NCBI RefSeq assembly: GCF_000007925.1
Contig: NC_005042.1
Location: 124,001-188,000 of the forward strand
Direction: 5' to 3'
Source of the DNA: Prochlorococcus marinus subsp. marinus str. CCMP1375
GTDB lineage: Bacteria; Cyanobacteriota; Cyanobacteriia; PCC-6307; Cyanobiaceae
DNA length: 64,000 nt
The stretch's first letter is position 1, and each line of letters starts with the position of its first letter. A model generated the notes under the pieces. The model saw only the letters and a program-made list of their open reading frames with translations, did not search any database and was not told the origin of the DNA. Shown here in pieces: positions 22,225 to 27,386 of the stretch. Made by a program: the position numbers and the translations under genes.

Positions 22225-22923
22225 ATGGGTGGAAATCCAAAAGAAATTTTGAGTTCTCAAAGTAGCACCAATAGTCTCACTCTCAACAATATTTCTTATT
22301 CTTGGAAGGCTGGGACTAAGGCTTTAGATAATTGTAGTTTTTCAATTCCAACCCCTGGGCTATGGATGCTAGTGGGTGCTAATGGTAGCGGAAAAAGTAC
22401 ATTATTTCGTCTTATTAGTGGATTGATTGCTCCACAAAGTGGACAAATTATTTGTTCATTAAAACCTGCTTTGATGTTGCAAAACCCAGATCATCAATTG
22501 CTTCTGCCTAGTTGCGCTAGTGATTTATTGTTAAGTCTTCCACCAGAGTTGAATACTCAGCAACGAAATGAACGCATAGCTTTTCATCTCAGGCAAGTTG
22601 GATTGTCAGATATGGAAGATAGGCCTATTCACACCCTTAGCGGTGGGCAGAAGCAACGTCTTGCTCTTGCCGGGGCTTTAGCAAGTGAGGCAAATTTATT
22701 GTTACTAGATGAACCTACTGCTTTATTAGATAAATCTAGTCAAAAATCTATTTTAGATATCTTAAGAAGAATTTCTAGAAAATCTTTAAAAGATCCAATT
22801 ACAGCTCTTTGGATCACTCATCGTCTTGAAGAGCTTACATATTGTGATGGTGCTGCAATAATGGAACAAGGGCGGTTGGGACAATGGTTTTCAGGAGCTG
22901 AAGTAATCGAGAAATTAAAGTAA
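22225..22923 (+). CDS. ABC transporter ATP-binding protein (CbiO/EcfA-like)
   Basis: The protein has 232 residues and one complete nucleotide-binding domain: Walker A GANGSGKST at 51-59, Q-loop MLQNPDHQLLLPS, signature LSGGQKQRLALA, Walker B LLLLDEPTALLD and the switch histidine in WITHRLEEL. The QNPDHQL Q-loop is typical of energy-coupling factor ATPases. No membrane component (EcfT) or substrate-binding component lies beside it, so the transported compound cannot be named. In plants related ABCI proteins exist as separate subunits. Confidence 0.85.
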   Translation: MGGNPKEILSSQSSTNSLTLNNISYSWKAGTKALDNCSFSIPTPGLWMLVGANGSGKSTLFRLISGLIAPQSGQIICSLKPALMLQNPDHQLLLPSCASDLLLSLPPELNTQQRNERIAFHLRQVGLSDMEDRPIHTLSGGQKQRLALAGALASEANLLLLDEPTALLDKSSQKSILDILRRISRKSLKDPITALWITHRLEELTYCDGAAIMEQGRLGQWFSGAEVIEKLK

Positions 22924-22966
22924 CTTGCCGTGCGAGGGGTATCAAGGCTAGGTTCTCTTTGAGCAA

Positions 22967-23038
22967 TCCTCGGTAGCTCAGCGGTAGAGCGATCGGCTGT
23001 TAACCGATTGGTCGCAGGTTCGAATCCCGCCCGGGGAG
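22967..23038 (+). tRNA. tRNA-Asn (anticodon GTT)
   Basis: The 72-nt sequence folds as a tRNA. The acceptor arm TCCTCGG pairs with the 3' CCGGGGA (one G-T pair), the D loop has AGCTCAGCGGTAGAGC, the anticodon loop CTGTTAA has GTT at 22999-23001, and the T arm has GGTTCGAATCC. The discriminator base is G and CCA is not encoded. A possible promoter is TTGCCG at 22925 and TAGGTT at 22949. A T run follows directly at 23039-23044. Confidence 0.97.
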
Positions 23039-23050
23039 TTTTTTACCTTC

Positions 23051-23082
23051 ACAAGTTTTCCTGAGTACTCAGGAAAACTTGT
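23051..23082. repeat. Perfect 32-bp palindrome downstream of tRNA-Asn
   Basis: The left half ACAAGTTTTCCTGAGT is followed immediately by its exact reverse complement. It starts 12 bp after the tRNA. As RNA it gives about a 14-bp stem with the centre GTAC as loop. No T run follows on the plus strand (TGTCTTGT), so it is not a textbook intrinsic terminator, but it could end tRNA or convergent transcripts. A protein-binding or recombination site is the alternative. Confidence 0.7.
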
Positions 23083-23231
23083 TGTCTTGTAATGACTGGA
23101 ACTAAGCGAAAAGAATCGTTCACCAGATTTCACGGTAGGTAAGAAATGCCATAAATGTGTTGAGGATAAGTTGGGGATTTTTCGAAGTGTGTTTGGGAGG
23201 ATTTCTTTTGTTGCAATAAGGCATGAAGAAG

Positions 23232-23253
23232 GGCGGGGTATTTTGATCCCGCC
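23232..23253 (+). repeat. GC-rich hairpin
   Basis: GGCGGGGT and ATCCCGCC form an 8-bp stem with one G-T pair around the loop ATTTTG. Such a GC-rich stem is rare in this genome outside structural RNA. No T run follows. It may be part of an RNA, or a processing or termination structure. Confidence 0.45.
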
Positions 23254-23298
23254 GTTTGAGTCAAGCACTTATTTTTAAGATCAATCGTGCTTGAACTG

Positions 23299-23327
23299 CT
23301 GACCTAGGTCTAACCCTCTGAGGTCAG
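23299..23327 (+). repeat. Hairpin CTGACCT/AGGTCAG
   Basis: A 7-bp perfect stem with a 15-base loop lies 45 bp after the previous hairpin. Together they suggest a folded transcript, but no known RNA family was recognised. Confidence 0.4.
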
Positions 23328-23569
23328 GATTCAACTGGAAGAAGTACCTGTTTTATGCATATTCAGGACACTATCAAATTTCCAGTATCCTCTTCTTTTG
23401 CCAGCTCTTACAATGCTTCGTTAGATGCTCTCTTGCTGGATGAGTGTGCGATAGGGCAAGTAAACAGGCTCAAACAGGATTTTGTACATTTATTTGTATG
23501 TGAAGTGTTCGCAAGTTATTCAGACAGCAGTGCCTCTTGAGTGTTGAAGTTCTCCATAAAGGAGAAATC

Positions 23570-23638
23570 ATGGTTCACCCAACTTATTGTGAGACTATAT
23601 TCCTTTCAAATACATCGCGGACACGTCCAAATAATTGA
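23570..23638 (+). CDS. Possible 22-residue leader-like peptide
   Basis: An ATG at 23570 stands six bases after GGAG, in AAAGGAGAAATC, a strong ribosome-binding site for this genome. The frame (MVHPTYCETIFLSNTSRTRP and two more residues) closes at TGA 23638, inside the 3' end of the antisense zinc-ribbon gene. The GGAG pairs with TTCTCC six bases upstream, so it could be masked in RNA. No homologue is known to me; it may be chance. Confidence 0.2.
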   Translation: MVHPTYCETIFLSNTSRTRPNN

Positions 23639-23970
23639 ACAGATTTAGGAATGACATAATCAAAAAAAAGCTCATTGATTAATTCACTAAAACGAAACAA
23701 AAGTAGATCATTATTAGTTTCTTGCACATCTTCTTCCAAGTCAATCAAGTCCTCTAGTCCTGAAAAATTAAACCTTCCCTTTCTTAATTCCCTAGACATA
23801 TCTATTATTTTTTTGAACAATTCTTTCTCAGTATCAGCAAGTTCTTCAGGAGAAGAAATGTTTTTAGTAGAATACTTTGCTTCGTAACTTGCACCTAGTT
23901 TAACGTCACACTTTTGACAAAAAAATATTCCTGGATTGTTAGTGAAGCCGCAACATCTACATTGACTCAT
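23584..23970 (-). CDS. Zinc-ribbon protein, function unknown
   Basis: The 128-residue protein opens with a treble-clef-type zinc ribbon, CRCCGFTNNPGIFFCQKC, whose CxxC pairs are near residues 4-7 and 18-21. The rest is helical and charged (LADTEKELFKKIIDMSREL, then LIDLEEDVQETNNDLLLFRF). Nothing enzymatic is seen. It is the last of four minus-strand genes; the gene upstream ends 42 bp away. Stand-alone zinc ribbons often accompany SPFH proteins of the type found at 25466, which fits one functional unit. Confidence 0.65.
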   Translation of the reverse strand: MSQCRCCGFTNNPGIFFCQKCDVKLGASYEAKYSTKNISSPEELADTEKELFKKIIDMSRELRKGRFNFSGLEDLIDLEEDVQETNNDLLLFRFSELINELFFDYVIPKSVQLFGRVRDVFERNIVSQ

Positions 23971-24012
23971 GATAAGATTAGTTTTTCACCGTTTAATTAG
24001 ATTGCCAATCTA

Positions 24013-24735
24013 TTATTTAATAGATTTTCTCTCTCTGAGCATTGCCCTAGTTACATTTATAACTGTTTTGGCTCGTGAATGATCGCCAGACTCTTTAACT
24101 AAAGTATTCATTAAAGCACTAAAAGCATTAGTGTTTGTATCTGTATCAGTATCCCCCCCATAGCCACCTCCTTTGAGATAATAATGAACATCTCCGGCTG
24201 TAGTCTTAAGAGTCATTACTTTATTTTGTGTTACTTCAAATCCAGCTACATCATTATAAAAATATTCAGACATATCATTAACTCCTTCTAATCCTGTGCG
24301 TATATTTTTTGCGGTATGGTAAGAGAAAATTTGATCTTTACCATAATTTAAAATACAAATACCCCTAGTATCAGCTCTAAAAATTTTATCCTTACCTTTA
24401 CGATATTTTTTGTTATTACCTTCTATATCCCATACAAACCAAAACCAATCTGGAGATTGCACTAACATATTTTCATCTATTCCACAGGCTTCTCTTGCTA
24501 CTTTGTATTGGGACTCAGCAAAGATCCTATATTCATCCTCAATTTGCGCATCTGTCATCGCTCCTCCTGTATATGAAAGCTTTTTTTTATATACCCAATA
24601 AGCAAGGCCCCAAAAGATTATGGGGCCAATTACCGTGACAATGCTTACAAGTCCAAGGAGAGCAATAAATATCACTAAATACAACCAGTAATCACGGAAA
24701 AAGTAATTATTGATTTTGTCTCTCTTGCTTGCCAT
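24013..24735 (-). CDS. Membrane-anchored protein with two N-terminal helices, function unknown
   Basis: The protein has 240 residues. Two hydrophobic segments (about 16-32 and 33-48: YLVIFIALLGLVSIVTVIG, then IIFWGLAYWVY) form a hairpin, after which the chain is soluble. The middle part (KIFRADTRGICILNYGKDQI, YFYNDVAGFEV, VMTLKTTAGDVHYYLKG) looks like a beta-rich bacterial PH-like domain, a weak call. A stretch rich in Gly, Asp and Thr (GGDTDTDTNTN) lies before the C-terminal helix. Codon use and AT content do not stand out strongly. It is the third gene of the SPFH block. Confidence 0.6.
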   Translation of the reverse strand: MASKRDKINNYFFRDYWLYLVIFIALLGLVSIVTVIGPIIFWGLAYWVYKKKLSYTGGAMTDAQIEDEYRIFAESQYKVAREACGIDENMLVQSPDWFWFVWDIEGNNKKYRKGKDKIFRADTRGICILNYGKDQIFSYHTAKNIRTGLEGVNDMSEYFYNDVAGFEVTQNKVMTLKTTAGDVHYYLKGGGYGGDTDTDTNTNAFSALMNTLVKESGDHSRAKTVINVTRAMLRERKSIK

Positions 24736-24812
24736 TGAATTACACCCTAAAGACTTTAGTAAGTGTACTCTAGAATAATATAGAATGACTAGATCTCTTA
24801 AGAAAAAGCCTT

Positions 24813-25457
24813 TTAAAGCCTATCGGCAATATTCGCGAGCGAATCTTTTAGTCTGGAAGGAGAAACAGTCTCGTTCTTCAGATCACTTTGAAGTTGCTTA
24901 CACAGACCTATTAAGGCGGGATCAATATTTACTGACGAGAATTCGATTGTATTAATAATATTGTGGATTAACTTCTTTTCTTCATGTTTATCTATTGAAT
25001 ACTTGCATTCATTTAAAATTTCCAACAATGAAATCTTTTGTTTGGATAGTTCATTTTGAGATGTTTTAATATTATCTATACTCCTTGTCTTGACAAGTAT
25101 TTTTTTATTTAAATATTCTAGAATCTCTAACGATGCCAGCCTAAATATACTAAATAAAAGTAATACTAATGTGGTAAATAATATATCACTATTGGAGTAT
25201 ATCTGCCGAAAATATATATAAAAAAAGTAGGTTATTATTAATGCTATTGGATAATATATTCTAGAAGCATAAGCTGCATACTTAAACCTAAAATCTTTAA
25301 TAGACTTTTTTTGATTGGGATAATTAATTCCAATTAGCGTAAGACAGTTTTCTATTAGAGCTACAGATAAGAGAATAAATCCTAATGATATATTATTTTC
25401 AAAAAGCACAAAAAATAATGCTAATATACAAATTGTAAAAGGAATTGCTGATTTCAT
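24813..25457 (-). CDS. Multi-pass membrane protein, function unknown
   Basis: The protein has 214 residues with about four hydrophobic helices (roughly 3-20, 24-43, 68-88 and 93-112), then a charged C-terminal half that is helical and may form a coiled coil (LNKKILVKTRSIDNIKTSQ). No known family was recognised. Base composition is more AT-rich than in the flanking housekeeping genes. It begins 8 bp downstream of the SPFH gene, so the two are probably translated from one message. Confidence 0.6.
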   Translation of the reverse strand: MKSAIPFTICILALFFVLFENNISLGFILLSVALIENCLTLIGINYPNQKKSIKDFRFKYAAYASRIYYPIALIITYFFYIYFRQIYSNSDILFTTLVLLLFSIFRLASLEILEYLNKKILVKTRSIDNIKTSQNELSKQKISLLEILNECKYSIDKHEEKKLIHNIINTIEFSSVNIDPALIGLCKQLQSDLKNETVSPSRLKDSLANIADRL

Positions 25458-25465
25458 ATTGTTTA

Positions 25466-26461
25466 TTAGATGTCGTTTAATATCTGAGATTTTTTATTTT
25501 CATAATCTTCAGTTGTAATCAATCCTTGATCTAATAGAGACTTAAGTTTATTCAATCTTTCTTCCGGGCTTGTTGACTGAGGGTTGGATGTTTTCTGACT
25601 TAAGTTGTTCTGATTCATAACATTGGATAAATTCGCTCCAGCACCAAGACCAAGACCTGCACCGATGAAAGCTGCTGCTGCTCCTCCATCACTGTCTGCT
25701 GCATTCTCGAGCACATCAAAACTTCTTTCTAAACTATAAGTTTCACGATTATTGCCTATTGCCTCACCTTTAATCTTTATAGAAGCTGCTTTTGCTAAAG
25801 CATTTTTAACTTCAACAAATGATGGGTCGTCTCCAATTATAGATATGCCTTCAACAAAAAAATCTTCTGCATAAATACCAAAGGACTTCCATTGATAAGC
25901 TAACCTTTCACCACAAGCATGTGAAAGTAATTTTGTAGAAGAAGCAATCCTAAAAACATCATTTTTTTGTGAGATATCAGATATAGATTGTGTTATTTCA
26001 CTTTGAATATATGGAAGAATAAATGATCTCAATTCTTTTGGAGAAAAAGATTGAGCAGTGCCAACTATTTGCCTAAAAAAACTTTGATGATCATTTATCC
26101 TCAACCTTATACTTCCATAGGCACCAATAGGCAAACTTAGATTATATTTTGAATCAAATATCTGGACTGGGTTACTTGTACCCCAATTATAATCTGTTGA
26201 AGTGGTACTAGTAATAAACCAAACATCATATGGTATTGATTGTTCACCACCAGGAAATAATTTTCGAATAAATGGTATGTTATTTGATTCAATTGGGTAT
26301 GTACCTGGTGGTAATGTCCCTATCAATTCACCAGAATTAAGCAAAATAGCTTTCTGTGTTTCTTGTACAATTATTTGCGAGCCATATCCAGGGGTATTCT
26401 CCGGATGCTTCCAGACCAAAAAATCCTTGGGATCCTTATCGCATCGTATCGATAGTTGCAT
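25466..26461 (-). CDS. SPFH-domain protein with C-terminal SHOCT domain (COG4260/YdjI-like)
   Basis: The protein resembles the stomatin/prohibitin-like family often called virion core protein-like. Family marks are IRCDKDPKDFLVWKHP, GSQIIVQETQKAILLNSGE, GPGTYPIE-like PPGTYPIESNNIPFIRKLF and WGTSNPVQIFDSKY, followed by the usual QIVGTAQSF and EGISIIGDDPSF. A glycine/alanine-rich stretch (AAAAFIGAGLGLGAGAN) separates this from a SHOCT domain, RLNKLKSLLDQGLITTEDYE. The SHOCT domain is a short oligomerisation or anchoring unit. The ATG at 26461 precedes the conserved core directly; another ATG at 26482 adds seven residues. It is divergent from rpaA and first of the four-gene block. Confidence 0.82.
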   Translation of the reverse strand: MQLSIRCDKDPKDFLVWKHPENTPGYGSQIIVQETQKAILLNSGELIGTLPPGTYPIESNNIPFIRKLFPGGEQSIPYDVWFITSTTSTDYNWGTSNPVQIFDSKYNLSLPIGAYGSIRLRINDHQSFFRQIVGTAQSFSPKELRSFILPYIQSEITQSISDISQKNDVFRIASSTKLLSHACGERLAYQWKSFGIYAEDFFVEGISIIGDDPSFVEVKNALAKAASIKIKGEAIGNNRETYSLERSFDVLENAADSDGGAAAAFIGAGLGLGAGANLSNVMNQNNLSQKTSNPQSTSPEERLNKLKSLLDQGLITTEDYENKKSQILNDI

Positions 26462-26618
26462 ATTAATAATATGACTATGCAATATTAGATTAGCTCAAAA
26501 TCTTTTTTATATTTCTAATTAATCTCAAAATAATAAGTAGCGATTTCTACAATACCCATCAATAAAGGAAACCGTGTAGTAAATTGTTGTTTAGTGATTA
26601 CTATTTGAGCCCAATCCA

Positions 26619-27386
26619 ATGAAGCCTTGCATTTTGTTAATAGAAGATGACAAGGATATGCGAGAGTTGGTGGGAGGTCACCTAGAACATACAGGCTTTG
26701 ATGTTCAAGTCGCTGAAGATGGCATAAAAGGTCAAGCTTTGGCCCTGCAATATAAGCCTGATTTAATTCTTCTCGACCTTATGCTTCCAAACGTAGATGG
26801 TCTAACTCTGTGTCAAAGGCTTAGAAGAGATGAAAGAACTTCTTCTATCCCTATTCTTATGATTACGGCTTTAGGGGCAACAAAAGATAAGGTTACAGGT
26901 TTTAATTCAGGCGCTGATGATTATCTAACAAAACCTTTTGATCTTGAAGAATTGCATGTACGTATTAAAGCTTTACTTAGGAGAACTAATCGTGCTCCTT
27001 TGGGCAGTACTGGTCACCCTGAAATTCTTAGTTATGGACCTATGACACTAGTACCTGAAAGATTTGAAGCCATTTGGTTCGAATGCCCTGTTCGATTAAC
27101 TCATTTAGAGTTTGAATTGCTTCATTGCCTTCTTCAGCGTCATGGTCAAACCGTTGCACCCTCATTAATACTTAAAGAGGTTTGGGGATATGAACCTGAT
27201 GATGATATTGAGACTATTAGAGTTCATGTTCGTCATCTGAGAACAAAGCTTGAACCAGAACCTCGAAAGCCTAGATTTATAAAAACAGTTTATGGAGCTG
27301 GATATTGCTTGGAATTACCTAAGGGTGAACAGATAAAACAATTTCGAGAATTAGTGTTGAATAAGGTTTCTCAGAAAGAGACATAA
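26619..27386 (+). CDS. rpaA: OmpR-family response regulator RpaA
   Basis: The protein has 255 residues. The receiver domain has the acidic pair D10/D11, the phosphoacceptor D53 in LILLDLMLP and the lysine in DYLTKPF. The winged-helix domain carries [20 protein letters not shown] and the end [15 protein letters not shown]. The segment [19 protein letters not shown] is, as I recall, specific to RpaA and absent from RpaB. RpaA is the clock output regulator that receives signals from SasA and controls day/night transcription. Upstream gap to the SPFH block is about 140 bp. RpaB lies 6 kb downstream. Confidence 0.9.

Follow-up and report, generated by a model that had tools for sequence, protein, structure and literature searches.

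The window, a stretch of 64,000 nucleotides corresponding to positions 124001–188000 of the single 1,751,080-bp chromosome of Prochlorococcus marinus SS120 (genome G000), contains a compact block of four minus-strand ORFs at 23584–26482, with intergenic spacings of 8, 77 and 42 bp in the ORF list. The original prediction of four closely spaced genes between a tRNA gene and rpaA is confirmed, rpaA being divergent, and in window coordinates the locus comprises:

22967–23038, plus strand: tRNA-Asn(GTT), the left edge of the variable gap
23039–23202, no strand: tRNA-proximal border common to G002 and partly to G014, missing at empty sites (blastn)
23197–23355, no strand: dispersed repeat flanking the 94-aa gene on its 3' side, with multiple copies in several Prochlorococcus genomes
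23356–23567, minus strand: relic of a 94-aa CxxC gene, frameshifted and stop-interrupted (tblastn, three frames)
23584–23970, minus strand: gene 4, 128 aa, N-terminal zinc ribbon (CRCCGFTNNPGIFFCQKC) and helical tail, TM-less
24013–24735, minus strand: gene 3, 240 aa, membrane-anchored protein with an N-terminal hydrophobic segment and a probable beta-rich cytosolic domain
24813–25457, minus strand: gene 2, 214 aa, 4-TM membrane protein with a cytosolic four-helix domain, as modelled
25466–26461, minus strand: gene 1, 331 aa, SPFH/Band_7_1 (COG4260/YdjI-like) protein with a C-terminal SHOCT domain
26619–27386, plus strand: rpaA, the conserved right edge of the variable gap, 85–95% identical in relatives

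Gene 1 had been predicted to start at TTG 26482 (338 aa); the SPFH gene is present, but alignment with its homologues makes ATG 26461 (331 aa) the more likely start. Judging from the spacing and the conserved order of the genes, all four are probably carried on one transcript, forming an operon.

The product of gene 1 matches the Pfam family PF13421 (Band_7_1; 5.4e-30, 105 bits against a curated cut-off of 24) and ends in a SHOCT domain (PF09851; 4.3e-8, 33.1 bits against a cut-off of 27, residues 308–335 of the 338-aa form), a domain reported to be found most often alongside PF13421 (PMC3581485). It lacks a strong TM segment, residues 267–285 registering as weakly hydrophobic only when the threshold is relaxed, and no solved structures related to the SPFH profile were found. 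For genes 2–4, Pfam, NCBIfam, PHROGs and PADLOC gave nothing better than chance-level hits. The expectation that only the SPFH gene could be named therefore holds for these libraries, but the pairing of SPFH and zinc-ribbon proteins is a recurrent, known theme (PMC8581546, PMC11237479). The gene 2 model places four N-terminal helices in a membrane half, with a cytosolic four-helix domain (pTM 0.39 for the model as a whole, pLDDT about 85 in its C-terminal part), and has no significant Foldseek match in the PDB. Gene 3 has one clear hydrophobic stretch, residues 18–36, which is perhaps a hairpin, and a domain that is probably beta-rich; its model is poor (pLDDT 40), and the PH-like element order it displays, seven strands then a helix, is not trustworthy. 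Gene 4 encodes a single zinc ribbon, C-x2-C-x10-C-x2-C, and no TM segment. A literature search on the four SS120 genes through guessed locus tags found nothing.

The tRNA-Asn/rpaA gap is an accessory-gene hotspot in Prochlorococcus, as had been proposed for this locus. No comparable cargo is present in seven close relatives (G003, G004, G005, G008, G009, G011 and G012), and at these empty sites similarity to SS120 ends within ~10 bp of the tRNA, at 23042–23048 (blastn). Other cargo occupies the gap in G002, G014, G016 and G029: G002 carries a methyltransferase together with a 602-aa protein, G014 a protein with a resolvase domain, and G016 an epimerase and a phosphoribosyltransferase-like protein, the latter named from sequence alone. 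The G002 insert (L066:1793-5152) is possible defence cargo, its methyltransferase being a partial PADLOC mad2 match and the 602-aa protein a sub-threshold match to Shedu (SduA_C). The left border of SS120 aligns with that of G002 at 87% identity over 22967–23202 and with that of G014 at 83% over 22967–23146 (blastn); on the right, rpaA and the same neighbours lie beside the gap in relatives. The 94-aa CxxC gene, broken in SS120 3' of gene 4, has an intact copy next to the tRNA in G014 and a homologue at that position in G002, with more copies or relics in other Prochlorococcus genomes. A small plus-strand ORF at 23355–23540 was dismissed as an artefact because it is antisense to this decayed gene. 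The locus is AT-rich, with GC down to 24%, and the only RNA family in the gap is the tRNA. The repeat at 23197–23355, ~160 bp with a GGGCGGGGTATTTTGATCCCGCC stem, is dispersed across many Prochlorococcus genomes, and three of the copies retrieved have a tRNA-Ser gene within ~1.5 kb. Immediately 3' of tRNA-Asn, at 23051–23082, lies a perfect 16-bp palindrome that is terminator-like.

Prochlorococcus genomes are known to carry tRNA-associated variable islands of the tycheposon type, which are inserted directly 3' of a tRNA gene, hold mixed cargo, and are empty in relatives. The SS120 site shares all of these characteristics, its location 3' of a tRNA, its emptiness in relatives and the mixture of cargo, but differs in having neither a tyrosine recombinase nor a tRNA 3'-end repeat. 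No direct repeat of the tRNA 3' end occurs in 22900–26650, and the SS120 gap contains no extra ORF of integrase size; integrase-type insertion with duplication of the tRNA end was rejected, as no such repeat was found at the site. The suggestion that the block is a phage-related module is likewise unsupported, given that there is neither integrase nor repeat, that IMG/VR, searched with the SPFH protein and gene 3, yielded no relatives, and that none of the four proteins has a PADLOC match at E ≤ 1. Four unannotated faecal “Bacteriophage sp.” records of 4–7 kb gave weak matches covering 35–72% of the SPFH protein; with the IMG/VR scans empty and these matches weak and partial, a phage origin is not supported.

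The same four genes, in identical order and strand and with gaps of 2, 47 and 24 bp, were found in Prochlorococcus sp. AG-402-K21 (G207), a member of another genus. Identities between the two strains are 62, 36, 47 and 45% for genes 1–4, every ORF is intact in G207, and the cysteines of gene 4 are kept. The G207 block is situated on contig C11, ~2.5 kb from a tRNA-Pro gene, while rpaA of this genome is on C10, placing the block at a different locus. The set does indeed travel together, as had been suggested, across two genera and two chromosomal contexts: what has been observed is a conserved four-gene block in a variable gap, recurring elsewhere in one distant Prochlorococcus. Its distribution is narrow, with genes 3 and 4 present in two of 251 family genomes (SS120 and G207), gene 2 convincing in the same two only, and SPFH relatives in 22 of the 251 at E ≤ 1e-10. 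A scan of ~85,000 species genomes, which may omit the window's own genome, returned a sole gene 3 homologue, that of AG-402-K21 (47% identical). Neighbouring orthologues of SS120 and G029, a relative in the genus of G207, are 38–85% identical; as the 36–62% identity of the block is similar to this, and its ORFs are intact in G207, the block appears to be old and maintained. The comparison argues for an old module that has undergone loss or relocation rather than for recent exchange. In the SPFH tree, rooted at the midpoint only, the proteins of the eight other Prochlorococcus cluster with full support, and those of SS120 and K21 stand apart from them.

The combination of an SPFH gene with an adjacent membrane protein and zinc ribbon is repeated in other Prochlorococcus. 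Eight further SPFH loci (G006, G008, G016, G061, G087, G093, G095 and G248) encode an SPFH-SHOCT protein, 37–39% identical to that of SS120, immediately followed by a multi-TM protein whose C-terminal domain is cytosolic, and in most cases a zinc-ribbon protein as well. Unlike in SS120, a TPR protein precedes the SPFH gene in seven of the eight, gene 3 is absent, and some of the zinc ribbons form part of fusions with a TPR or another domain. The 4-TM protein of these loci has the same position as gene 2 and a similar topology; homology between the two was undetectable by hhalign (E 0.076) and hmmsearch, which gave nothing significant. Across cyanobacteria, 21 of 26 SPFH loci (8/10 among those of Prochlorococcus) have a zinc-ribbon ORF on the strand of the SPFH gene and no more than 2.6 kb from it, as opposed to 7 of 542 random control regions, a contrast that is somewhat inflated because the controls were one-sided 2.6-kb stretches of AT-rich Prochlorococcus DNA and some of the test loci are GC-rich. 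The theme extends to a COG4260 SPFH-GYF_2 pair of more distant cyanobacteria (for example L006, L008 and L009), in which a zinc-ribbon gene directly follows the SPFH gene; here, however, a GYF_2 tail replaces SHOCT, the zinc-ribbon protein ends in a TM helix, and the stretch examined contains no 4-TM or gene 3 partners. At other Prochlorococcus SPFH loci (L033–L039), several proteins have similar N-terminal zinc ribbons and varied C-terminal parts (TPR, trypsin-like), a pattern that would suit a ribbon acting as a docking tag.

In Bacillus subtilis, the SPFH protein YdjI is reported to require YdjG and YdjH for recruitment to the membrane, and the membrane localisation of PspA to depend on YdjI (PMC8581546); a comparative study describes their operon as encoding PspA alongside proteins that bear band-7, zinc-ribbon and TPM domains (PMC11237479). 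This PspA-YdjG-YdjH-YdjI system is the closest characterised counterpart of the SS120 block, which resembles it in that an SPFH protein of the YdjI kind (Band_7) is encoded with membrane proteins and a zinc ribbon. It differs in that no PspA was found in the operon or the genome, and in having no TPM-domain YdjH: genes 2 and 3 have no TPM domain (Pfam, E ≤ 1), and no detectable relation to YdjG or YdjH. Further, YdjG is a membrane protein with two zinc ribbons, whereas gene 4 encodes a single ribbon and no TM, and SS120 differs again in the SHOCT tail of its SPFH protein and in its two lineage-specific membrane proteins. The SPFH membrane anchors of B. subtilis have been demonstrated experimentally (PMC8581546).

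The PspA/VIPP1 family (PF04012), present in 202 of the 251 family genomes, was not found in 14 genomes of the window's genus, SS120 among them, several of these assemblies being incomplete, nor in G207 or G029, and the VIPP1 of G016 as query returned nothing at E ≤ 10 in SS120 or G207. No mention of this was found in the excerpts of the literature searched. The SPFH module co-occurs with VIPP1 in G016, G061, G087, G093, G095 and G248, and is present where VIPP1 was not found in G000, G006, G008 and G207, so that no correlation between the two was seen. Because PspA/VIPP1 was not found, the SS120 operon is not filed under the PspA-Ydj system. By analogy, it may nevertheless work like the SPFH-anchor half of that system, and the block is probably a PspA-free and diverged relative of a membrane-stress system that is already known.

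The explanation best suited to these observations, and one held with moderate confidence, is that the block encodes an SPFH membrane-scaffold system in the form of an accessory operon, probably read as a single transcript, that is old, patchily retained, and independent of PspA. Several other readings draw on the same data. A defence role is possible, if on balance rather unlikely: in a module for anti-phage or intergenomic conflict, infection would be sensed by the SPFH scaffold together with the zinc-ribbon protein, and the membrane proteins would act as effectors. This would suit the accessory hotspot, the patchy distribution, the diverging membrane partners, the methyltransferase and Shedu-like protein carried in the same gap of G002, and the varied TPR and trypsin proteins of SPFH-zinc-ribbon loci elsewhere; against it, PADLOC is negative for all four proteins, no recognisable nuclease, toxin or NTPase is encoded, and divergence between the genera is no faster than that of ordinary neighbouring genes. 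The least credible reading is that of a divergent PspA-YdjGHI phage-shock system proper, recruiting an ESCRT-III protein. The shared SPFH family (PF13421) and the zinc-ribbon and membrane partners reported for B. subtilis (PMC8581546) would fit, but the negative PF04012 and VIPP1 searches in the genus and in G207, and the lack of a TPM domain in genes 2 and 3, strongly disfavour it.

It is quite unlikely that the block serves as a thylakoid or photosystem-assembly organiser of some low-light Prochlorococcus, rather than as a stress system. In cyanobacteria, SPFH proteins are believed to demarcate regions of the membrane (PMC9950537), and VIPP1 was not found in the host lineage, both of which would accord with such a role; however, most close relatives lack the block, and no VIPP1 was found in them either, so that the block is not needed for thylakoids in general. 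Nor do the four genes look like unrelated ORFs or decaying island debris with no common function, an idea that can be regarded as very doubtful: the accessory, AT-rich locus and the decayed gene adjoining the block lend themselves to it, but all four ORFs are intact and their order is kept in another genus despite high divergence.

Under the preferred reading of an accessory SPFH scaffold operon, the SPFH protein would oligomerise into a scaffold, kept on the membrane by the cytosolic domains of the gene 2 and gene 3 proteins, and client proteins would be docked through adaptors, namely the zinc-ribbon protein and possibly the SHOCT tail too. A membrane-stress role is plausible by analogy with YdjI and its anchors, in which the system would organise or protect membrane regions under stress without a PspA/VIPP1 ESCRT-III partner. 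A bolder and unlikely version is a PspA/VIPP1-independent SPFH machine for membrane maintenance, in which an accessory scaffold, aided by a zinc-ribbon adaptor and two membrane anchors of its own, would perform membrane surveillance by itself in a cyanobacterial lineage where the ESCRT-III protein VIPP1 was not found; such a machine would be no general replacement for VIPP1, as it is confined to some strains. The findings mark the tRNA-Asn/rpaA gap as a hotspot and draw attention to a lineage with thylakoids but with no VIPP1 found. They also suggest that SPFH modules of the YdjI type can exist where PspA/VIPP1 was not found, with entirely different membrane partners; if this is true, the constant core would be the SPFH protein and the zinc ribbon, and the anchors would be interchangeable.
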